From contig NZ_PNFP01000005.1 of assembly GCF_002940685.1 (NCBI RefSeq), forward strand, positions 248,001 to 312,000: a stretch of 64,000 nt of DNA. The letters run 5' to 3'. Positions 4,282-60,455 of the stretch are shown here, one piece after another. Position 1 is the stretch's first letter, and the number at the start of each line of letters is the position of its first letter. This DNA comes from Ensifer adhaerens (lineage in GTDB: Bacteria; Pseudomonadota; Alphaproteobacteria; Rhizobiales; Rhizobiaceae). A program made the position numbers and the translations under genes. The notes under the pieces were generated by a model that worked only from the letters and a program-made list of their open reading frames with translations, searched no databases and was not told the origin of the DNA.

Positions 4282-4522
4282 CGATCATGGACCGGAAAGC
4301 GAACACCGAGGTGGCCAAAGCCGAGGCCTGCCGTGCGCCGGGCGCATCCCTCGGTTGCGGATTGGCCCCTAGTATTTCAGGGTATTTCAAGCTTATTTAA
4401 CATCTTATACGATAACAGGGGTGGCAAGCACACTGATTTCGGATGGGTTTCTTGCCGGGGCAAGAATTTGTCGCGATTGTCGAGCAGACGAGCGGCGACA
4501 TGAGTGGAGCAACTTCGCGCAC

Positions 4523-52315: not shown

Positions 52316-53410
52316 CTATGACGACCGGCCAGCCGCCAGCATGTTGAGCAGCATCACCGCACTTCCGTCCCAGGAAAAGCGTTTGGCATTGTCGTAGCCG
52401 GCACGCGTCAGCGCGCGACGAAGATCTCCATCGGCCGAAATCGTCCGCATAGCCTCGACCAGCGTATCCGTCTTTGTCGGATCGAAGTAGCGGACCGCAT
52501 CGCCACAGGCCTCTCGCACCGGCGGAATGTCGGCGGCCAGCACCGGGCAGCCCTGTGTCATCGCCTCGAGCGGCGGAATGCCGAAACCTTCATAGAGGCT
52601 TGGGAAGACGAAGGCGACGGCGCGGCGCTGCAGCCCGGCGACCTCTTCGTCCGTCAGGCGCCCCGGAAAGATCAGGTTTCCCTTCGATGTCGGCGCGATG
52701 TCGCGAAACACCGTCGGGTCGGTGCCCCCGACGACGACGAGCTTGTGATCACCGGCACCAAACGCCTCGAAGGCCTTGACCGCGAACTCGACATTCTTGT
52801 TGGGCTTCAGCGTGCCAACCAGGAGGAAGAAGGGCGTATCGGCAAGCCCCAGCCGCGCGATGATGCCGTCGTCCGGCTGAAGTCCGGCAAAATGATCGGT
52901 CGCATTGTAGATCACGTCGATACCGACCGCCGGCACACGGAAGACCTCGGCGAGTTCGCGTCGCGAGAAGTTGGAAACCGTGCCGATCTTCGCCCGCCAC
53001 GTAAGAAGATAGCCCAACGTTCCATGGAACAGCCGGTAGCCGCGCCCGAACGAGGCCGGATGGCGAAACAAGGTGACATCGTGGATCACCACCACCTGAT
53101 CGCCATGCAGCACCGGTCCGCTACCGCCGAAACCGATGAGCGTGTCGCGTCGCGCGCGCCAGCAAAGCGGGCCCTGCTCCCAGACATGGCCAGGCCCTGC
53201 GCCAAAACGCTCGAGCGAAATCGCCTTGAGGCCGAGATCGTCAACCGCCTTGCCCGGCGCAAGCAGCCGCCAGCGCACATCCTTCAGCGCATGCGGCACG
53301 GCGCCGGAGGCGATGCGGGCATCAAGTGCCCGGGTCATCTCCCGGGCAAAACGCTGCACGCCGGTAAGCGGCTGGGTCAGGAACCGGCCATTGATGGAAA
53401 TCGTCTTCAC
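52316..53410 (-). CDS. Glycosyltransferase family 1/GT4-type
   Basis: 364 residues, GT-B fold. The N-terminus SINGRFLTQPLTGVQRFAREMT and the C-terminal donor site (FFLLVGTLKPNKNVEFAVKA, then FPSLYEGFGIPPLEAMTQGC with the E-x7-E motif) are typical of mannosyl- or rhamnosyltransferases in polysaccharide synthesis. The ATG complementary to 53408-53410 is the only good start. The 183 bases to the divergent CobW gene show no clear operator. Confidence 0.92.
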   Translation of the reverse strand: MKTISINGRFLTQPLTGVQRFAREMTRALDARIASGAVPHALKDVRWRLLAPGKAVDDLGLKAISLERFGAGPGHVWEQGPLCWRARRDTLIGFGGSGPVLHGDQVVVIHDVTLFRHPASFGRGYRLFHGTLGYLLTWRAKIGTVSNFSRRELAEVFRVPAVGIDVIYNATDHFAGLQPDDGIIARLGLADTPFFLLVGTLKPNKNVEFAVKAFEAFGAGDHKLVVVGGTDPTVFRDIAPTSKGNLIFPGRLTDEEVAGLQRRAVAFVFPSLYEGFGIPPLEAMTQGCPVLAADIPPVREACGDAVRYFDPTKTDTLVEAMRTISADGDLRRALTRAGYDNAKRFSWDGSAVMLLNMLAAGRSS

Positions 53411-53593
53411 GCACGCCCCCTCGATGTGCCCGCACTGTCGCCGATCTTGATGAAGGGACGGTTATCGGCGCGGCAGCAGAGGCCCGTTCCAGCCGGCAAA
53501 ATCGTCGGCGCCATTTGCGCATCGTCGCCGCATCTCCTATATGAAACGCAACTAGGATGCCCGCTCCCGCATCCGGAAATCCCAGAGGTTCCC

Positions 53594-54715
53594 ATGACCG
53601 AAACATCCCCGCAGAAGCCGATCCCCGTCACCGTGCTCACCGGCTATCTCGGCGCCGGCAAGACGACGCTTTTGAACCGCATCCTCAGCGAGAACCACGG
53701 CCGCAAATACGCCGTCATCGTCAACGAGTTCGGCGAGATCGGCATCGACAACGACCTGATCGTGGAATCCGACGAGGAAATCTACGAGATGAACAACGGC
53801 TGCGTCTGCTGCACCGTGCGCGGCGACCTGATCCGCGTGGTGGAAGGCCTGATGCGCCGCCCCGGCCGCTTCGACGCGATCATCGTCGAAACCACCGGCC
53901 TTGCCGACCCGGTGCCGGTCGCCCAGACCTTCTTCATGGATGACGATGTTCGCGCCAAGACCGAGCTCGACGCCGTCGTCGCCCTCGTCGACGCCAAGCA
54001 CCTGCCGCTCCGCCTCAAGGACAGCCGCGAGGCCGAAGATCAGATCGCCTTTGCCGATGTCGTTCTGCTCAACAAGACCGACCTCGTCACCCCCGAGGAG
54101 CTGGAGCGCATCGAAGCGACCGTGCGCGTCATCAATCCGTCGGCCCGCATCTACCGCACGCAGCGCTCCGACATCGATCTCGCCAAGGTCCTCGATCAGG
54201 GTGCCTTCAACCTCGAACGGGCGCTGGAAAACGATCCGCATTTCCTCGACCAGGACGAGCACGAACACGACCACACTTGCGGTCCGGACTGCGGCCACGA
54301 CCATCATCACCACCATGATCACGATCACCACCACCATGATCATGATCATGATCATGACCACGATCACGACCATCATCACCATCACCACGACGCCCCCTCG
54401 CCGATCCATGACGTGACGGTGCAGTCGATCTCGCTGCGCGGCGGCGAGATGAACCCGGACCGCTTCTTCCCCTGGATCCAGAAGATCACCCAGACAGACG
54501 GCCCGAACATCCTGCGCCTGAAGGGCATCATCGCCTTTGCCGGCGACGCCGAGCGCTATGTCGTCCAGGGCGTGCACATGATCATCGAAGGCGATCACCA
54601 GCGTGCGTGGAAGGAAGGCGAGAAGCGCGAAAGCCGCCTCGTCTTCATCGGCCGGGATCTCGACCGTGAAAAGCTCGAGCGCACCTTCAAGGCCTGCGAG
54701 GCGCAGCCGAACTGA
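53594..54715 (+). CDS. CobW/COG0523 GTPase with a long His/Asp-rich loop
   Basis: 373 residues. Walker A GYLGAGKT is at residues 17-24, the metal-binding CVCC at 70-73, and the guanine motif NKTD near 157-160; the C-terminal CobW domain follows. Between them, about residues 235-265, is a run of nearly thirty His and Asp residues, a metal store or sensor seen in zinc-linked COG0523 proteins. The family hands zinc, cobalt or other metals to client proteins. ATG at 53594 lies seven bases after AGAGG. The next gene overlaps the stop by one base. Confidence 0.93.
   Translation: MTETSPQKPIPVTVLTGYLGAGKTTLLNRILSENHGRKYAVIVNEFGEIGIDNDLIVESDEEIYEMNNGCVCCTVRGDLIRVVEGLMRRPGRFDAIIVETTGLADPVPVAQTFFMDDDVRAKTELDAVVALVDAKHLPLRLKDSREAEDQIAFADVVLLNKTDLVTPEELERIEATVRVINPSARIYRTQRSDIDLAKVLDQGAFNLERALENDPHFLDQDEHEHDHTCGPDCGHDHHHHHDHDHHHHDHDHDHDHDHDHHHHHHDAPSPIHDVTVQSISLRGGEMNPDRFFPWIQKITQTDGPNILRLKGIIAFAGDAERYVVQGVHMIIEGDHQRAWKEGEKRESRLVFIGRDLDREKLERTFKACEAQPN
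54290..54390 (+). repeat. CAY/GAY microsatellite-like tract coding for His and Asp
   Basis: The stretch is built of CATCAY, GATCAT and GACCAC units (for example GATCATGATCATGATCATGA) within the CobW gene. Such repeats can expand or shrink in steps of three or six bases without a frameshift, changing the metal-binding loop length. Confidence 0.75.
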
Positions 54716-55704
54716 TGCCGACTGTCGCTCCCCTCGATCTCGAAGGTCACGTCGTCGGCGTGACCTTTCTCAGAGGCGTCCCCTTCTTCGCCGAAGCCAC
54801 CGGTGCCATTCACCGCCTCGACCTCGGTCACAAGACGACCAAGGTTCACGAAGGCCTTTTGTCGCTCGTCGTCGACGAAGCGAACGATACGCTTTTGACC
54901 GGCGGTGAAGACGGCAAGGTCATGCGCACCGCCGCTGACGGCACGACGGCACTCGTCGCCGAGGCACCACGCAAGTGGATCGCCCAGGTTGCCGCCGGCC
55001 CGCAAGGCGCCGTTGCCTACGCCTATGGCAAGACCAGCCATGTTCGTCTCGCCGATGGCACCACCAAGGAATTTGCCGAGGAACGCACCGTCGAGGGGCT
55101 CGCCTTTGCGCCAAAGGGCCTGCGTGTTGCCGCAGCCCGCTACAATGGCGTCTCCTTGCATTGGGTCGGCACATCCGGCCAGCCGATCGACCTCGAATGG
55201 AAGGGCGCCCATACCGGCGTCACCTTCTCGCCGGACGGCCGCTTCCTCGTCACGACGATGCAGGAAAACGCGCTGCATGGCTGGAAGCTCGACGCCAAGC
55301 CCGGTGCCGAGGCGCGCCACATGCGCATGACCGGCTATCCGGCCAAGGTGAAATCGCTCTCCTGGTCGGCCAAGGGCAAGTGGCTCGCCTCCTCAGGCGC
55401 ACCGGCGGCCATCGTCTGGCCCTTCCAGGGCAAGGACGGTCCGATGGGCAAGGCGCCGCTGGAACTCGGGACACGCGCCGACATCATGGTGACATCCGTC
55501 TGCTGCCATCCGGCCGAAGACATCGTCGCAATCGGCTATCAGGATGGCATGATCCTCGGCGCGCGCTTTGCCGACAGCAAGGAAGTGCTGCTGCGCCGTC
55601 CGGGCAAGGGCGCCATCACCGCGATGGCCTGGAACAAAGACGGCAAGCAGCTCGCCTTCGGCTCGGCCGAGGGCGACTGCGGTGTCGTCGATATCGCCGG
55701 ATAG
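54715..55704 (+). CDS. WD40-repeat protein linked to the CobW gene
   Basis: 329 residues forming a seven-bladed beta propeller; blade ends are visible as LDLGHKTTKVHEGLL, HTGVTFSPDGRFLVTTMQEN then ALHGWKLD, and SWSAKGKWLASSGAPAAIVW. No signal peptide is seen, so it is cytoplasmic. It shares its first base with the CobW stop codon, implying translational coupling; a scaffold for metal delivery by the GTPase is an inference from that coupling. Confidence 0.88.
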   Translation: MPTVAPLDLEGHVVGVTFLRGVPFFAEATGAIHRLDLGHKTTKVHEGLLSLVVDEANDTLLTGGEDGKVMRTAADGTTALVAEAPRKWIAQVAAGPQGAVAYAYGKTSHVRLADGTTKEFAEERTVEGLAFAPKGLRVAAARYNGVSLHWVGTSGQPIDLEWKGAHTGVTFSPDGRFLVTTMQENALHGWKLDAKPGAEARHMRMTGYPAKVKSLSWSAKGKWLASSGAPAAIVWPFQGKDGPMGKAPLELGTRADIMVTSVCCHPAEDIVAIGYQDGMILGARFADSKEVLLRRPGKGAITAMAWNKDGKQLAFGSAEGDCGVVDIAG

Positions 55705-57934: not shown

Positions 57935-59122
57935 TCAGATCTTCACGAGCGCCGCCGTCAGATACATGAAGGCGGCACCGGCCGCGAGCCCGGCCAGAAC
58001 CGGCGGCGTCAGGAAGACGTCGCGCCCGCGATCGCTCTGGCGCATCAGATAGGCACCGACCTCGATGATCACCTGCAGGATCGCGCCCGCGCCGACCGCC
58101 AGCGCCAGCGCCGACCATTGCGCCGAGGTCGCCAGGCTCCCGAGCCACATGCCGATGACAGCCGGACCACCGGCAAGCAGCGTCAGGCCGACAAAAACCC
58201 CGGCAGACGGCCTCTTGTTCAGGATGGGAGCGGCAATGCCGATGCCTTCGGTGACGTTGTGAAGCGCAAAGCCGAGCACCAGGAAAGTGCCGAGCCCGGC
58301 CGAGCCCGCGGCAAAGGCGGCACCAATCGCCAGCCCCTCGCCGAGATTGTGCAGCCCGATGCCGAGCGCGATATAGGTGGAGAGCGCCAGCCCCGCCGGA
58401 GCGCCGCTTCGCCTGCCGATCGCCATCAAGAGGAGGAAGCTGCTCAAGCCCGCCAGCACCACCATGACCGGCCCCTGGAAGACCGCTGCCGCCTCGCCGG
58501 CAAGCTCGAGCGCCTCGCCGCTGGCATCGACCAGCAGGAAGCCGAGCAGGCCGATCGTCAGCGACAGCAGGAAGGCCATGCCTTCGCGGCCGACCCCGCG
58601 CAGCACCGGGTAGAACATCAGGCCGACGGCCACAGGCACGATGCCGACGATGATGCCGACCAGAGCCTGCAACCGCAACTGGCCTGACATCGCCTGCGGC
58701 GTCGGCACGGCGACGGCAATGTCATGCGCAAAGGTGGCGCCGGTGTTGGTTACCACCTTCACCGCATGCGCTTCACCGAGCATCCAGGGGAACGGCAGCT
58801 TCAGCCACGCAGCCCTCCCCCGCGCGATCGGACCCGGCGGGTCCTGGGTGAATTGCCAGTAGGCGTCGTCCACCTGGACCTGCGCCACCGTCATCGGTTC
58901 CGATCCGCCGGCGCGAACAAGAAGGCTGAGGCCGCTTTCGTCGAGCACCGTCCGTTCGAAGGTCAGGTTTTCGACGGGGGGTGCACCGTTGCGGAAGCCC
59001 GACAACGGATCGGTCGACAGAATCCAGGCAACGGCGATGCCGAAGACGATGAGGGGCAGCGCCAGCCACACCAGGTTGGTCCTCGCCGCGCGGAAGGCGG
59101 CTCTCGGCAGGGTCTCGTTCAT
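57935..59122 (-). CDS. ZIP-like metal permease with N-terminal periplasmic domain
   Basis: 395 residues. A membrane anchor (about 17-36) is followed by a periplasmic beta-rich domain (about 45-142, no family recognised) and a ZIP-type bundle of about seven helices (150-395). Two ZIP signatures are exact: HNLGEG at 258-263 and HNVTEG at 288-293, the metal-coordinating helices 4 and 5. ZIP proteins import divalent metals such as zinc, iron or manganese. The start overlaps the multicopper oxidase stop by four bases (ATGA), so the two are translationally coupled. The longer frame to 59659 is inside the oxidase gene. Confidence 0.85.
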   Translation of the reverse strand: MNETLPRAAFRAARTNLVWLALPLIVFGIAVAWILSTDPLSGFRNGAPPVENLTFERTVLDESGLSLLVRAGGSEPMTVAQVQVDDAYWQFTQDPPGPIARGRAAWLKLPFPWMLGEAHAVKVVTNTGATFAHDIAVAVPTPQAMSGQLRLQALVGIIVGIVPVAVGLMFYPVLRGVGREGMAFLLSLTIGLLGFLLVDASGEALELAGEAAAVFQGPVMVVLAGLSSFLLLMAIGRRSGAPAGLALSTYIALGIGLHNLGEGLAIGAAFAAGSAGLGTFLVLGFALHNVTEGIGIAAPILNKRPSAGVFVGLTLLAGGPAVIGMWLGSLATSAQWSALALAVGAGAILQVIIEVGAYLMRQSDRGRDVFLTPPVLAGLAAGAAFMYLTAALVKI

Positions 59123-60246
59123 GCCAGCGCCTCCACCACATCGAACATGCCGACCCAGCCGAGTTCTGTGAACTCGGTCTGGTGCGGGTGGAACATGTAA
59201 AGTCCGGGTTCGTGCTCGGCGAAGGTAAACTCCAGAATGCCACGCTGCGCCTGGCACTGGGTGATGAGATCGACGGTCTTCAAGGTCGGCGTCAGCGTCG
59301 TGCCCTGATCGAAGTAGTCGAAGAAATTGGCGTGCAGGTGGAACGAGTTGATCGGGTCGAACTCGATGACGTTGATGAGATAGATGCGCACCGGCTTGCC
59401 CTTCACGATCCGGATCGGACGCTTCATGAAGGCGTGGGCGACGGTGTTGACGGCATAGAACTCGTTCTCGGCATCGAAGTTGGTGTCGAAGGCGTTCATC
59501 ACCATCACCAGTTCCTGCCAGCCGGCATTCTCCGGCGTGCCGAGCAATCGCGACCGGGCGACGTCGGCATGCTCCGGCCGGCGCTCCGGATCCGGGTCGA
59601 TGACGAAGGCGCCGTACATGCCCTTGTGGATGTGCCGGCGCAGCGGCATGGCGTGGCAATGATAGAGATGGCAGCCGAAGGGCTTGGCATCGAATTCATA
59701 AGTAAACTCGTCACCGGGATCGACCATGCCGGCGCCCGGCACGCCGTCCATGCGCGCCGCGTGAATGCCGTGAAAATGGATCGAATGCGGATGCGAGGCG
59801 TAATTGCGAAAGACGATCCTCAGCCGCTCGCCCTCCTTCGCCCGGAGCGCCGGCCCCGGTACGCGACCGTTGTAGGTCCAGGCGGGGAACTTGATGCCGG
59901 GCGCGATCTCGATCTCGCGGTCCTCGGCCGTCATTTCGAAGGTGCGTAGCGTGCGCCCGTCCGGCAGCGTCGAAACGGTGCCCGTGTCCCAATCGGTCAG
60001 CATCTCCGTCGGATCGAAACCATTGACGGCGCTATCGACCTCGCCGACCGTCATCATCGCGCCATGCCCCATGGCCGGCATCGGCTCCTGGCCCGTCGCT
60101 CCCGATGGCGCGGCATGACCGACATGGCTCGCCTGCTGCTGGCCCAAGGCGGCGCTGGTACAGATCGCCGTCCCGCCTGCTGCAGCCAGCCCGCCCATCA
60201 GCAGACTGCGCCTTCGCAGCAGATCCGGTCTCGTCGGCTTGTCCAT
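59119..60246 (-). CDS. Two-domain multicopper oxidase with Tat signal
   Basis: 375 residues. A Tat signal (RRRSLLMGGLAAAGGTA, residues about 11-28) exports the folded enzyme, as expected for a copper protein. Two cupredoxin domains follow. The first holds HPHSIHFHG and HLYHCHAMPLRRHIHKGMYG, a full type-1 ligand set with Cys, His and Met plus trinuclear histidines; the second holds HLHANFF and MFHPHQTEF, lacking the type-1 cysteine. A Met/His-rich stretch (MPAMGHGAMM) lies after the signal. It may oxidise Fe(II), Mn(II) or Cu(I). It is coupled to the ZIP-like gene, and two Fur/Mur-like boxes lie 77-124 bases upstream. Confidence 0.92.
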   Translation of the reverse strand: MDKPTRPDLLRRRSLLMGGLAAAGGTAICTSAALGQQQASHVGHAAPSGATGQEPMPAMGHGAMMTVGEVDSAVNGFDPTEMLTDWDTGTVSTLPDGRTLRTFEMTAEDREIEIAPGIKFPAWTYNGRVPGPALRAKEGERLRIVFRNYASHPHSIHFHGIHAARMDGVPGAGMVDPGDEFTYEFDAKPFGCHLYHCHAMPLRRHIHKGMYGAFVIDPDPERRPEHADVARSRLLGTPENAGWQELVMVMNAFDTNFDAENEFYAVNTVAHAFMKRPIRIVKGKPVRIYLINVIEFDPINSFHLHANFFDYFDQGTTLTPTLKTVDLITQCQAQRGILEFTFAEHEPGLYMFHPHQTEFTELGWVGMFDVVEALA

Positions 60247-60322
60247 GTTCGCCCCTCTTCCTCATTGAATGACGCGCCCCGCACAACGCCTGACCGAGGC
60301 CAGCAAAGCGCCCAGATGCTTC

Positions 60323-60337
60323 TGCAAATCATTTGCA
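60323..60337. promoter_or_regulatory. Fur/Mur-like box 1 upstream of the multicopper oxidase
   Basis: TGCAAATCATTTGCA is a perfect palindrome around a central C and matches the general TGCAAAT-N-ATTTGCA shape of Fur-family sites in proteobacteria. It lies 77 bases upstream of the oxidase start. In rhizobia the Fur homologue is often Mur, which responds to manganese. Confidence 0.6.
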
Positions 60338-60355
60338 TCACATCTTCAATGCAAA

Positions 60356-60370
60356 TGCAACTCATTCGCA
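60356..60370. promoter_or_regulatory. Fur/Mur-like box 2 upstream of the multicopper oxidase
   Basis: TGCAACTCATTCGCA keeps the same outline with two asymmetric pairs. Its centre is 33 bases from that of box 1, about three helical turns, so two dimers would lie on the same face. The whole 306-base gap (60247-60552) is otherwise unremarkable apart from the hairpin at 60456-60488. Confidence 0.5.
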
Positions 60371-60455
60371 ACTAACTTGGAGCGTGATTTCCCGGTCCGG
60401 GGGCCGGCAGGGCCACTCCGCCAACGCGCCGCCCTGCCATCGACCCTGAAGCAAG

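Follow-up and report, generated by a model that had tools for sequence, protein, structure and literature searches.

What does a multicopper oxidase do for a metal permease that is encoded directly behind it, and for which metal do the two proteins work? The question is raised by a pair of genes, here called mco and zip, on contig NZ_PNFP01000005.1 of Ensifer adhaerens (assembly GCF_002940685.1), in a stretch of 64,000 nucleotides that we analyzed as a whole and refer to as the window. According to its Pfam and PDB matches mco (positions 59119..60246, minus strand) encodes an exported two-domain multicopper oxidase of 375 amino acids with a signal of the twin-arginine translocation (Tat) type, and zip (57935..59122, minus strand) encodes a ZIP-fold metal permease of 395 amino acids that begins with a transmembrane (TM) helix and a beta-sandwich, presumably on the periplasmic side. 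Start and stop codons overlap in the sequence ATGA (59119..59122, minus strand). An earlier reading made from the letters alone (the sequence-only reading) had described this very arrangement, and sequence, Pfam and PDB matches confirm it. We suggest, with moderate confidence, that mco-zip is a manganese-repressed unit for the acquisition of Mn(II), in which the oxidase would control the ions that reach the permease. The parts of this proposal differ in strength: manganese-type regulation in Alphaproteobacteria is very probable, metal import is probable, and the oxidase as a selectivity filter for the permease is a tentative suggestion that may well be wrong.

We find that the two genes form, with near certainty, a conserved unit. 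When the window's own genome and those of 60 relatives (61 in all) were searched with thresholds of E < 1e-90 for the permease and E < 1e-140 for the oxidase, exactly the same 23 gave strong matches to both, adjacent and on one strand, and all 16 searched genomes of the genus are among them. Of 398 genomes across the phylum, the window's own included, 5 matched the permease profile (E <= 1e-10), and all but one of these also matched the oxidase profile (E <= 1e-60). The exception (L038, G234:C15) holds a remnant in which about 45 last residues of mntR and the 176 last residues of the permease meet head to head near base 1507; no oxidase match is seen there, and the locus looks as a deletion would leave it. 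A scan of a species-level collection returned at least 524 permease relatives, and in all of the best 80, which were kept as named loci, the oxidase gene lies directly upstream of the permease gene. On plasmids, 146 records contain a permease relative (E <= 1e-5) and 144 an oxidase relative (E <= 1e-60), with nearly equal tallies for the commonest genera, and the genes stand side by side in each of the 21 plasmid regions read, which come from Pseudomonadota, Cyanobacteriota, Deinococcota, Actinomycetota, Bacillota and haloarchaea. The search for conserved oxidase/ZIP pairs that the sequence-only reading had proposed as a check thus came out in its favor. The locus of Pseudaminobacter manganicus JH-7 (L057) has both the pair and mntR, and the species name suggests a link to manganese.

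The upstream region of mco points to the metal that is probably sensed. An exact Mur/Fur-type palindrome, TGCAAATNATTTGCA (60323..60337, strand-neutral), which is rare genome-wide, lies proximal to the gene, and by sequence comparison the distal Mur operator, TTGCGAATGAGTTGCATTTGCA (60350..60371, minus strand), is common to the sitA-type promoter of the same genome. The mco and sitA promoters have AGTTGCGAATG..T..CATTTGCATTGA in common, with 24 of 28 bases identical, and mco therefore carries the sitABCD-like Mur-type operator expected of a member of the Mur regulon. Among 1704 tiles of the window, taken on both strands, 24 identities were reached only in the two minus-strand tiles that hold the mco promoter; the next four reach 20, and two of these again lie over the mco promoter. 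The shared 22-bp pattern is mismatch-free at exactly two sites in the 7.5 Mb genome, namely the mco and sitA-type promoters. As these two served to define the pattern, the count shows its rarity and is not an independent discovery; the reversed pattern, a control, matches no site in the genome even at three mismatches. In all 13 loci of this type in the genus, the flanks have diverged while operator block and second palindrome have kept their register, in agreement with the paired Fur/Mur-like boxes of the sequence-only reading. A chance test of the box within the window alone was not significant; we reject a chance origin on the in-register conservation, the genome-wide rarity and the box counts across loci given below.

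The genome contains three Fur-family genes, one divergent from the sitA-type gene, one Irr-like and one beside a znuABC-like operon, and these look like Mur, Irr and Zur, where the names are a reading of context. The C-terminal domain of the DtxR family (PF02742) has no match in the genome, and the same model matches an E. coli control. As far as the genome sequence tells, Mur is thus the only Fur-type candidate regulator for mco-zip here. In S. meliloti and R. leguminosarum the Fur homologue is manganese-responsive (PMC6386902, PMC5575495, PMC10315480); it has been renamed Mur, and the control of iron falls to RirA and Irr (PMC6386902, PMC5575495).

Many relatives of the pair lie beside a gene for a different sensor. 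A divergent mntR, annotated in database records as the manganese-binding regulator MntR, stands directly beside the oxidase gene in 35 of the 80 named loci (and in 23 of the 64 species-level loci left after thinning). Boxes were counted in 77 of the 80, the other 3 being skipped as the oxidase N-terminus was not covered. All 34 scanned mntR-adjacent loci have a TAGC-N4-GCTA palindrome with at most one mismatch (2.35 expected from shuffles), which is exact in 26 of them (0.05 expected), and which resembles the MntR box of E. coli. Eleven of these loci, of the Rhodobacteraceae type, have it at -7 to +5 relative to a predicted promoter of the form TTGACT-17-GATTAT (in one of them TTGACA), where a bound protein would be expected to act as a repressor. 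Fur/Mur boxes with at most two mismatches occur in 0/34 loci with mntR versus 30/43 without it (Fisher test, 1.8e-11, a value inflated by relatedness, as both this test and the shuffle controls ignore kinship among the loci). On a quick tree built from 65 concatenated sequences, made up of the window and 64 loci after 13 of the 77 had been dropped (12 near-copies and one with a stop in the oxidase frame), the type of regulator, Mur or MntR, requires at least four changes. Nothing speaks more strongly for a role of the pair in manganese than that two unrelated manganese sensors replace each other at it. On plasmids, where the counts of regulators and neighbors rest on incomplete gene tables, a DtxR-family regulator directly adjoins the pair in 10 of the 21 regions (four of them alphaproteobacterial) and stands one gene further in one more; these neighbors span Pseudomonadota, Actinomycetota, Deinococcota and a haloarchaeon, for example Arthrobacter, Paenarthrobacter, Rubrobacter, one Rhodococcus, Deinococcus and Halobaculum. 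Nramp genes are found nearby in L128, L142 and L111. Upstream of the oxidase, four loci (L041, L042, L060 and L106) have neither a clear Mur box nor mntR; the three from Mesorhizobium have a degenerate TAAGC-N4-GCTATA element, and L106 has a Fur-like TTGCAATTAATTCCTAATTGCA element.

Because Mur is the sole Fur-type candidate, the operator is common to sitA and relatives use MntR, we take manganese and not iron as the most likely metal for this genome. The sequence-only reading had left the choice between iron and manganese control, which can be narrowed to manganese here, and there is strong support for the idea that oxidase and permease form a functional unit under a Fur-family operator.

Several points weigh against manganese acquisition as the function of the pair. 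Promoter prediction gave no good candidate for 17 of the 34 mntR-adjacent loci, and in two more the palindrome lies elsewhere. The 77 scanned loci include 4 with neither box nor mntR, 2 with both boxes, and nine in which an MntR-type box is present without an adjoining mntR. Ten of the 21 plasmid regions list no DtxR-family regulator close by (Rhodococcus PR4, R. ruber, Nocardia, cyanobacteria, Bacillota and two haloarchaea), and since seven of these ten are near ArsR, P-type ATPase, CDF, RND, cadmium or copper genes, the metal may differ in these copies. Actinobacterial relatives of DtxR can sense iron, ZIP proteins with motifs of the zip type have a broad specificity, and the proposal leaves unexplained why a manganese importer should need an oxidase.

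Could the oxidase be active as an enzyme? The signal stretch RRRSLLM (60196..60216, minus strand), read by eye in the translation, is of the twin-arginine type. We assign the oxidase to the type C class of two-domain multicopper oxidases on its two cupredoxin domains, a type 1 (T1) copper site in the N-terminal domain only and a full set of trinuclear-site histidines (Pfam; 3gdc and 7rab matches). The T1 ligands H154, C197, H205 and M210 in domain 1 and the eight trinuclear histidines (157, 159, 196, 198, 303, 305, 353 and 355) were assigned from the sequence by the motifs of multicopper oxidases and NirK. In 20/20 representatives of six phyla (the window included) H154, C197 and H205 never vary, nor does any of the eight trinuclear histidines, and the axial position 210 is methionine in 10/20 and leucine in 10/20. 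By analogy with other two-domain oxidases, the protein probably works as a trimer. Assignment as the copper nitrite reductase NirK was rejected (85 bits against a cut-off of 296.3, NCBIfam TIGR02376), and so was assignment as a copper-resistance oxidase of the CueO/CopA kind (42.9 of 525 bits for NF008205; 94.8 of 478.95 bits for TIGR01480). Since chain 3gdc_A has the same sequence as residues 88-375 of the oxidase from the pair on a plasmid of Arthrobacter sp. FB24, a crystal structure of a family member already exists; our literature search found no paper that gives 3GDC a role and none for 7RAB/7RAC. The type names follow PMC13151041.

The permease has a ZIP fold with conserved metal motifs in TM4 (HNLGEG, residues 258-263; 58334..58351, minus strand) and TM5 (HNVTEG, residues 288-293; 58244..58261, minus strand), by which we place it in the ZIP family. 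H258, N259, E262, N289 and E292 are invariant in the 20 representatives and H288 is kept in 18 of them; the roles of these residues are assigned from the motifs of the family. The match to Pfam PF02535 (Zip) scores 34.2 bits, with a gathering score of 35.1, and Zip is the only family reported by Pfam at E <= 0.01; no match to Ftr1 (FTR1/EfeU) was found. A place as ZupT equivalog was rejected (29 of 252 bits, NCBIfam NF003243). The beta-sandwich (residues about 49-138; 58709..58978, minus strand) resembles the archaellum stator proteins FlaF/FlaG. Residues 1-138 as a whole (58709-59122), a TM helix plus a beta-sandwich like those of archaeal archaellin and stator proteins, form an unusual fusion to a ZIP core, and this may hint at an archaeal source.

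How might such a pair work? In the model that we favor, manganese-loaded Mur would block the promoter, and when manganese is scarce Mur would release the two operators and both proteins would be made together. The oxidase would be exported folded and copper-loaded via Tat to act in the periplasm, while the ion that the permease would import, by way of a ZIP site formed by H258, E262, H288 and E292, would be divalent and most probably Mn(II). For the FlaF-like periplasmic domain of the permease a role in holding or placing partners is probable, and the oxidase may be one of them. Since a ZIP permease needs no trivalent ion, we favor the removal of competing ions as the task of the oxidase, which would most likely oxidize Fe(II) or Cu(I) with O2 at the mouth of the permease, both being likely competitors of Mn(II); direct oxidation of Mn(II) is our second choice. 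The gene order in some relatives suggests an electron carrier for the oxidase: a gene for a Rieske iron-sulfur protein lies behind the permease gene in five regions (L121, L122, L142, L143 and L150; in Rubrobacter after one other gene) and a plastocyanin gene in two haloarchaea (L123 and L145), and relatives of the Rieske protein gave no match in the 80 alphaproteobacteria-dominated loci. A TatA gene follows in two plasmid regions. In its widest form, which we regard as speculative and on balance unlikely, the proposal would be that of a widespread, mobile manganese acquisition in which the oxidase clears Fe(II)/Cu(I) and so makes a broad ZIP permease selective for manganese in oxic, manganese-poor settings, or in which manganese valences are cycled via Rieske protein or plastocyanin.

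The closest precedent for a joint action of oxidase and permease is iron uptake, as known from Fet3-Ftr1 of yeast and from the bacterial FtrABCD and EfeUOB. As in Fet3-Ftr1, an oxidase would work with a permease and both would be co-produced under metal control. The differences are that mco-zip has a two-domain oxidase, a ZIP-fold permease unrelated to Ftr1 and Mn-type operators instead of iron control, and as its permease has no match to Ftr1 we do not count it as a member of that system. One could still imagine the same chemistry, with Mn(II) or Fe(II) made trivalent, handed to the periplasmic domain of the permease and imported. The strict pairing in two domains of life, the complete copper site and the extra domain speak for such a hand-over, which we nevertheless consider improbable: the permease has a ZIP fold with a His/Glu motif site, and no metal site conserved family-wide is evident in its extra domain, whose candidate histidines H119 and H133 are kept in 10 and 11 of the 20 representatives, respectively. 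Since ZIP proteins are known for divalent ions, direct hand-over, which the sequence-only reading had offered as one option, is only one of several possibilities. If the metal were iron, and the pair an Fe(II) oxidase and its permease controlled through a Fur-type box, the Fur-like boxes would be accounted for, and DtxR-family regulators of Actinobacteria can, as mentioned, respond to this metal. We give this reading little credence and reject iron as the main metal, as Mur is the sole Fur-type candidate and the genome has no PF02742 match; the alternative regulator of the relatives is annotated as manganese-binding MntR, and in the rhizobia studied the Fur homologue is the manganese sensor Mur and iron is under RirA and Irr (PMC6386902).

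A role in resistance has to be weighed as well. The oxidase might, outside the cytoplasm, oxidize Mn(II), Cu(I) or Fe(II) when these are in excess, with the permease removing or retaking metal, and the pair would then form a resistance module. Half of the plasmid records (74/146) are conjugative, and genes for P-type ATPase, SCO, PCu(A)C and CDF proteins adjoin relatives of the pair. Rough counts in the 64 thinned loci, obtained by clustering of open reading frames (ORFs) with families named by eye and antisense ORFs mixed into the mntR family, give P-type ATPase 14, SCO-like 12 and PCu(A)C 8, besides an unidentified exported protein (11) and a MerR-type regulator (10). Against this, operators for a manganese-sensing repressor, common to the uptake operon sitA, predict expression at low manganese, and the window copy lies outside any resistance island, with MFS, cysE, glyoxalase family and LysE genes as neighbors. 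The detoxification alternative of the sequence-only reading is therefore less likely here, even if many relatives sit among heavy-metal genes, and overall it seems to us a poor candidate. Copper homeostasis, with a cuprous oxidase and a permease for the handling of periplasmic copper, would fit the copper genes near several plasmid copies. In Haloferax mediterranei a similar-looking operon of oxidase, membrane protein and plastocyanin is strongly raised under denitrifying conditions and is called probably copper-related by the authors (PMC11218638). This operon could not be linked to the mco-zip family, no H. mediterranei plasmid being among the best 40 of 151 records, and what Alphaproteobacteria have at the pair itself is a Mn-type regulator; of all the explanations considered, we find copper homeostasis very hard to credit.

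Our reading remains metal uptake coupled to an oxidase, and the likely metal is manganese. Viewed against other known systems, mco-zip resembles the type C oxidases (3GDC of Arthrobacter sp. FB24; 7RAB/7RAC) in having T1 in domain 1 and a trinuclear site, and adds to them an obligate ZIP partner and Mn-type regulators. It differs from BbZIP/ZupT in the extra TM helix and FlaF-like domain of a permease that is far below the ZupT equivalog cut-off and that follows an oxidase gene in every locus examined except one remnant. With SitABCD and MntH of rhizobia it has the sensor families Mur and MntR in common, and here the sitA-type gene has the same Mur operator, whereas the class of transporter is another and the partner is an O2-using oxidase. 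The Mn(II) oxidases MnxG, CotA and MoxA are likewise multicopper oxidases linked to manganese; they make manganese oxides, and we know of no permease partner or manganese repression for them. A literature search that did not cover Rodionov 2006, Platero 2007 and Chao 2004, which might already list the pair, found no description of mco-zip as a system, in line with the claim of the sequence-only reading that no characterized system has this exact architecture, with the regulon study of Rodionov et al. (2006) as the reservation.

Two further features of the window deserve mention. At 53594-54715 and 54715-55704 a CobW/COG0523-type GTPase gene with a very long His-rich run touches a gene with WD40 repeats; these two, 2-3 kb from mco-zip, are likely a metal chaperone pair, and a look at 53380-53620, upstream of the CobW gene, gave no Zur-like box. 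Far from mco-zip, at 4403-4417, the sequence TCTTATACGATAACA has 1 mismatch to the palindrome TGTTATANNATAACA and is possibly a metal-regulator box.

The transport of manganese matters to nitrogen fixation in some legume nodules (PMC5575495). If our proposal holds, rhizobia and many other microbes would have a further route of manganese acquisition beside SitABCD and MntH, and the clade of two-domain multicopper oxidases represented by the crystal structure 3GDC would gain a physiological setting. How ZIP permeases of broad specificity gain selectivity, an old question, would then become directly testable.

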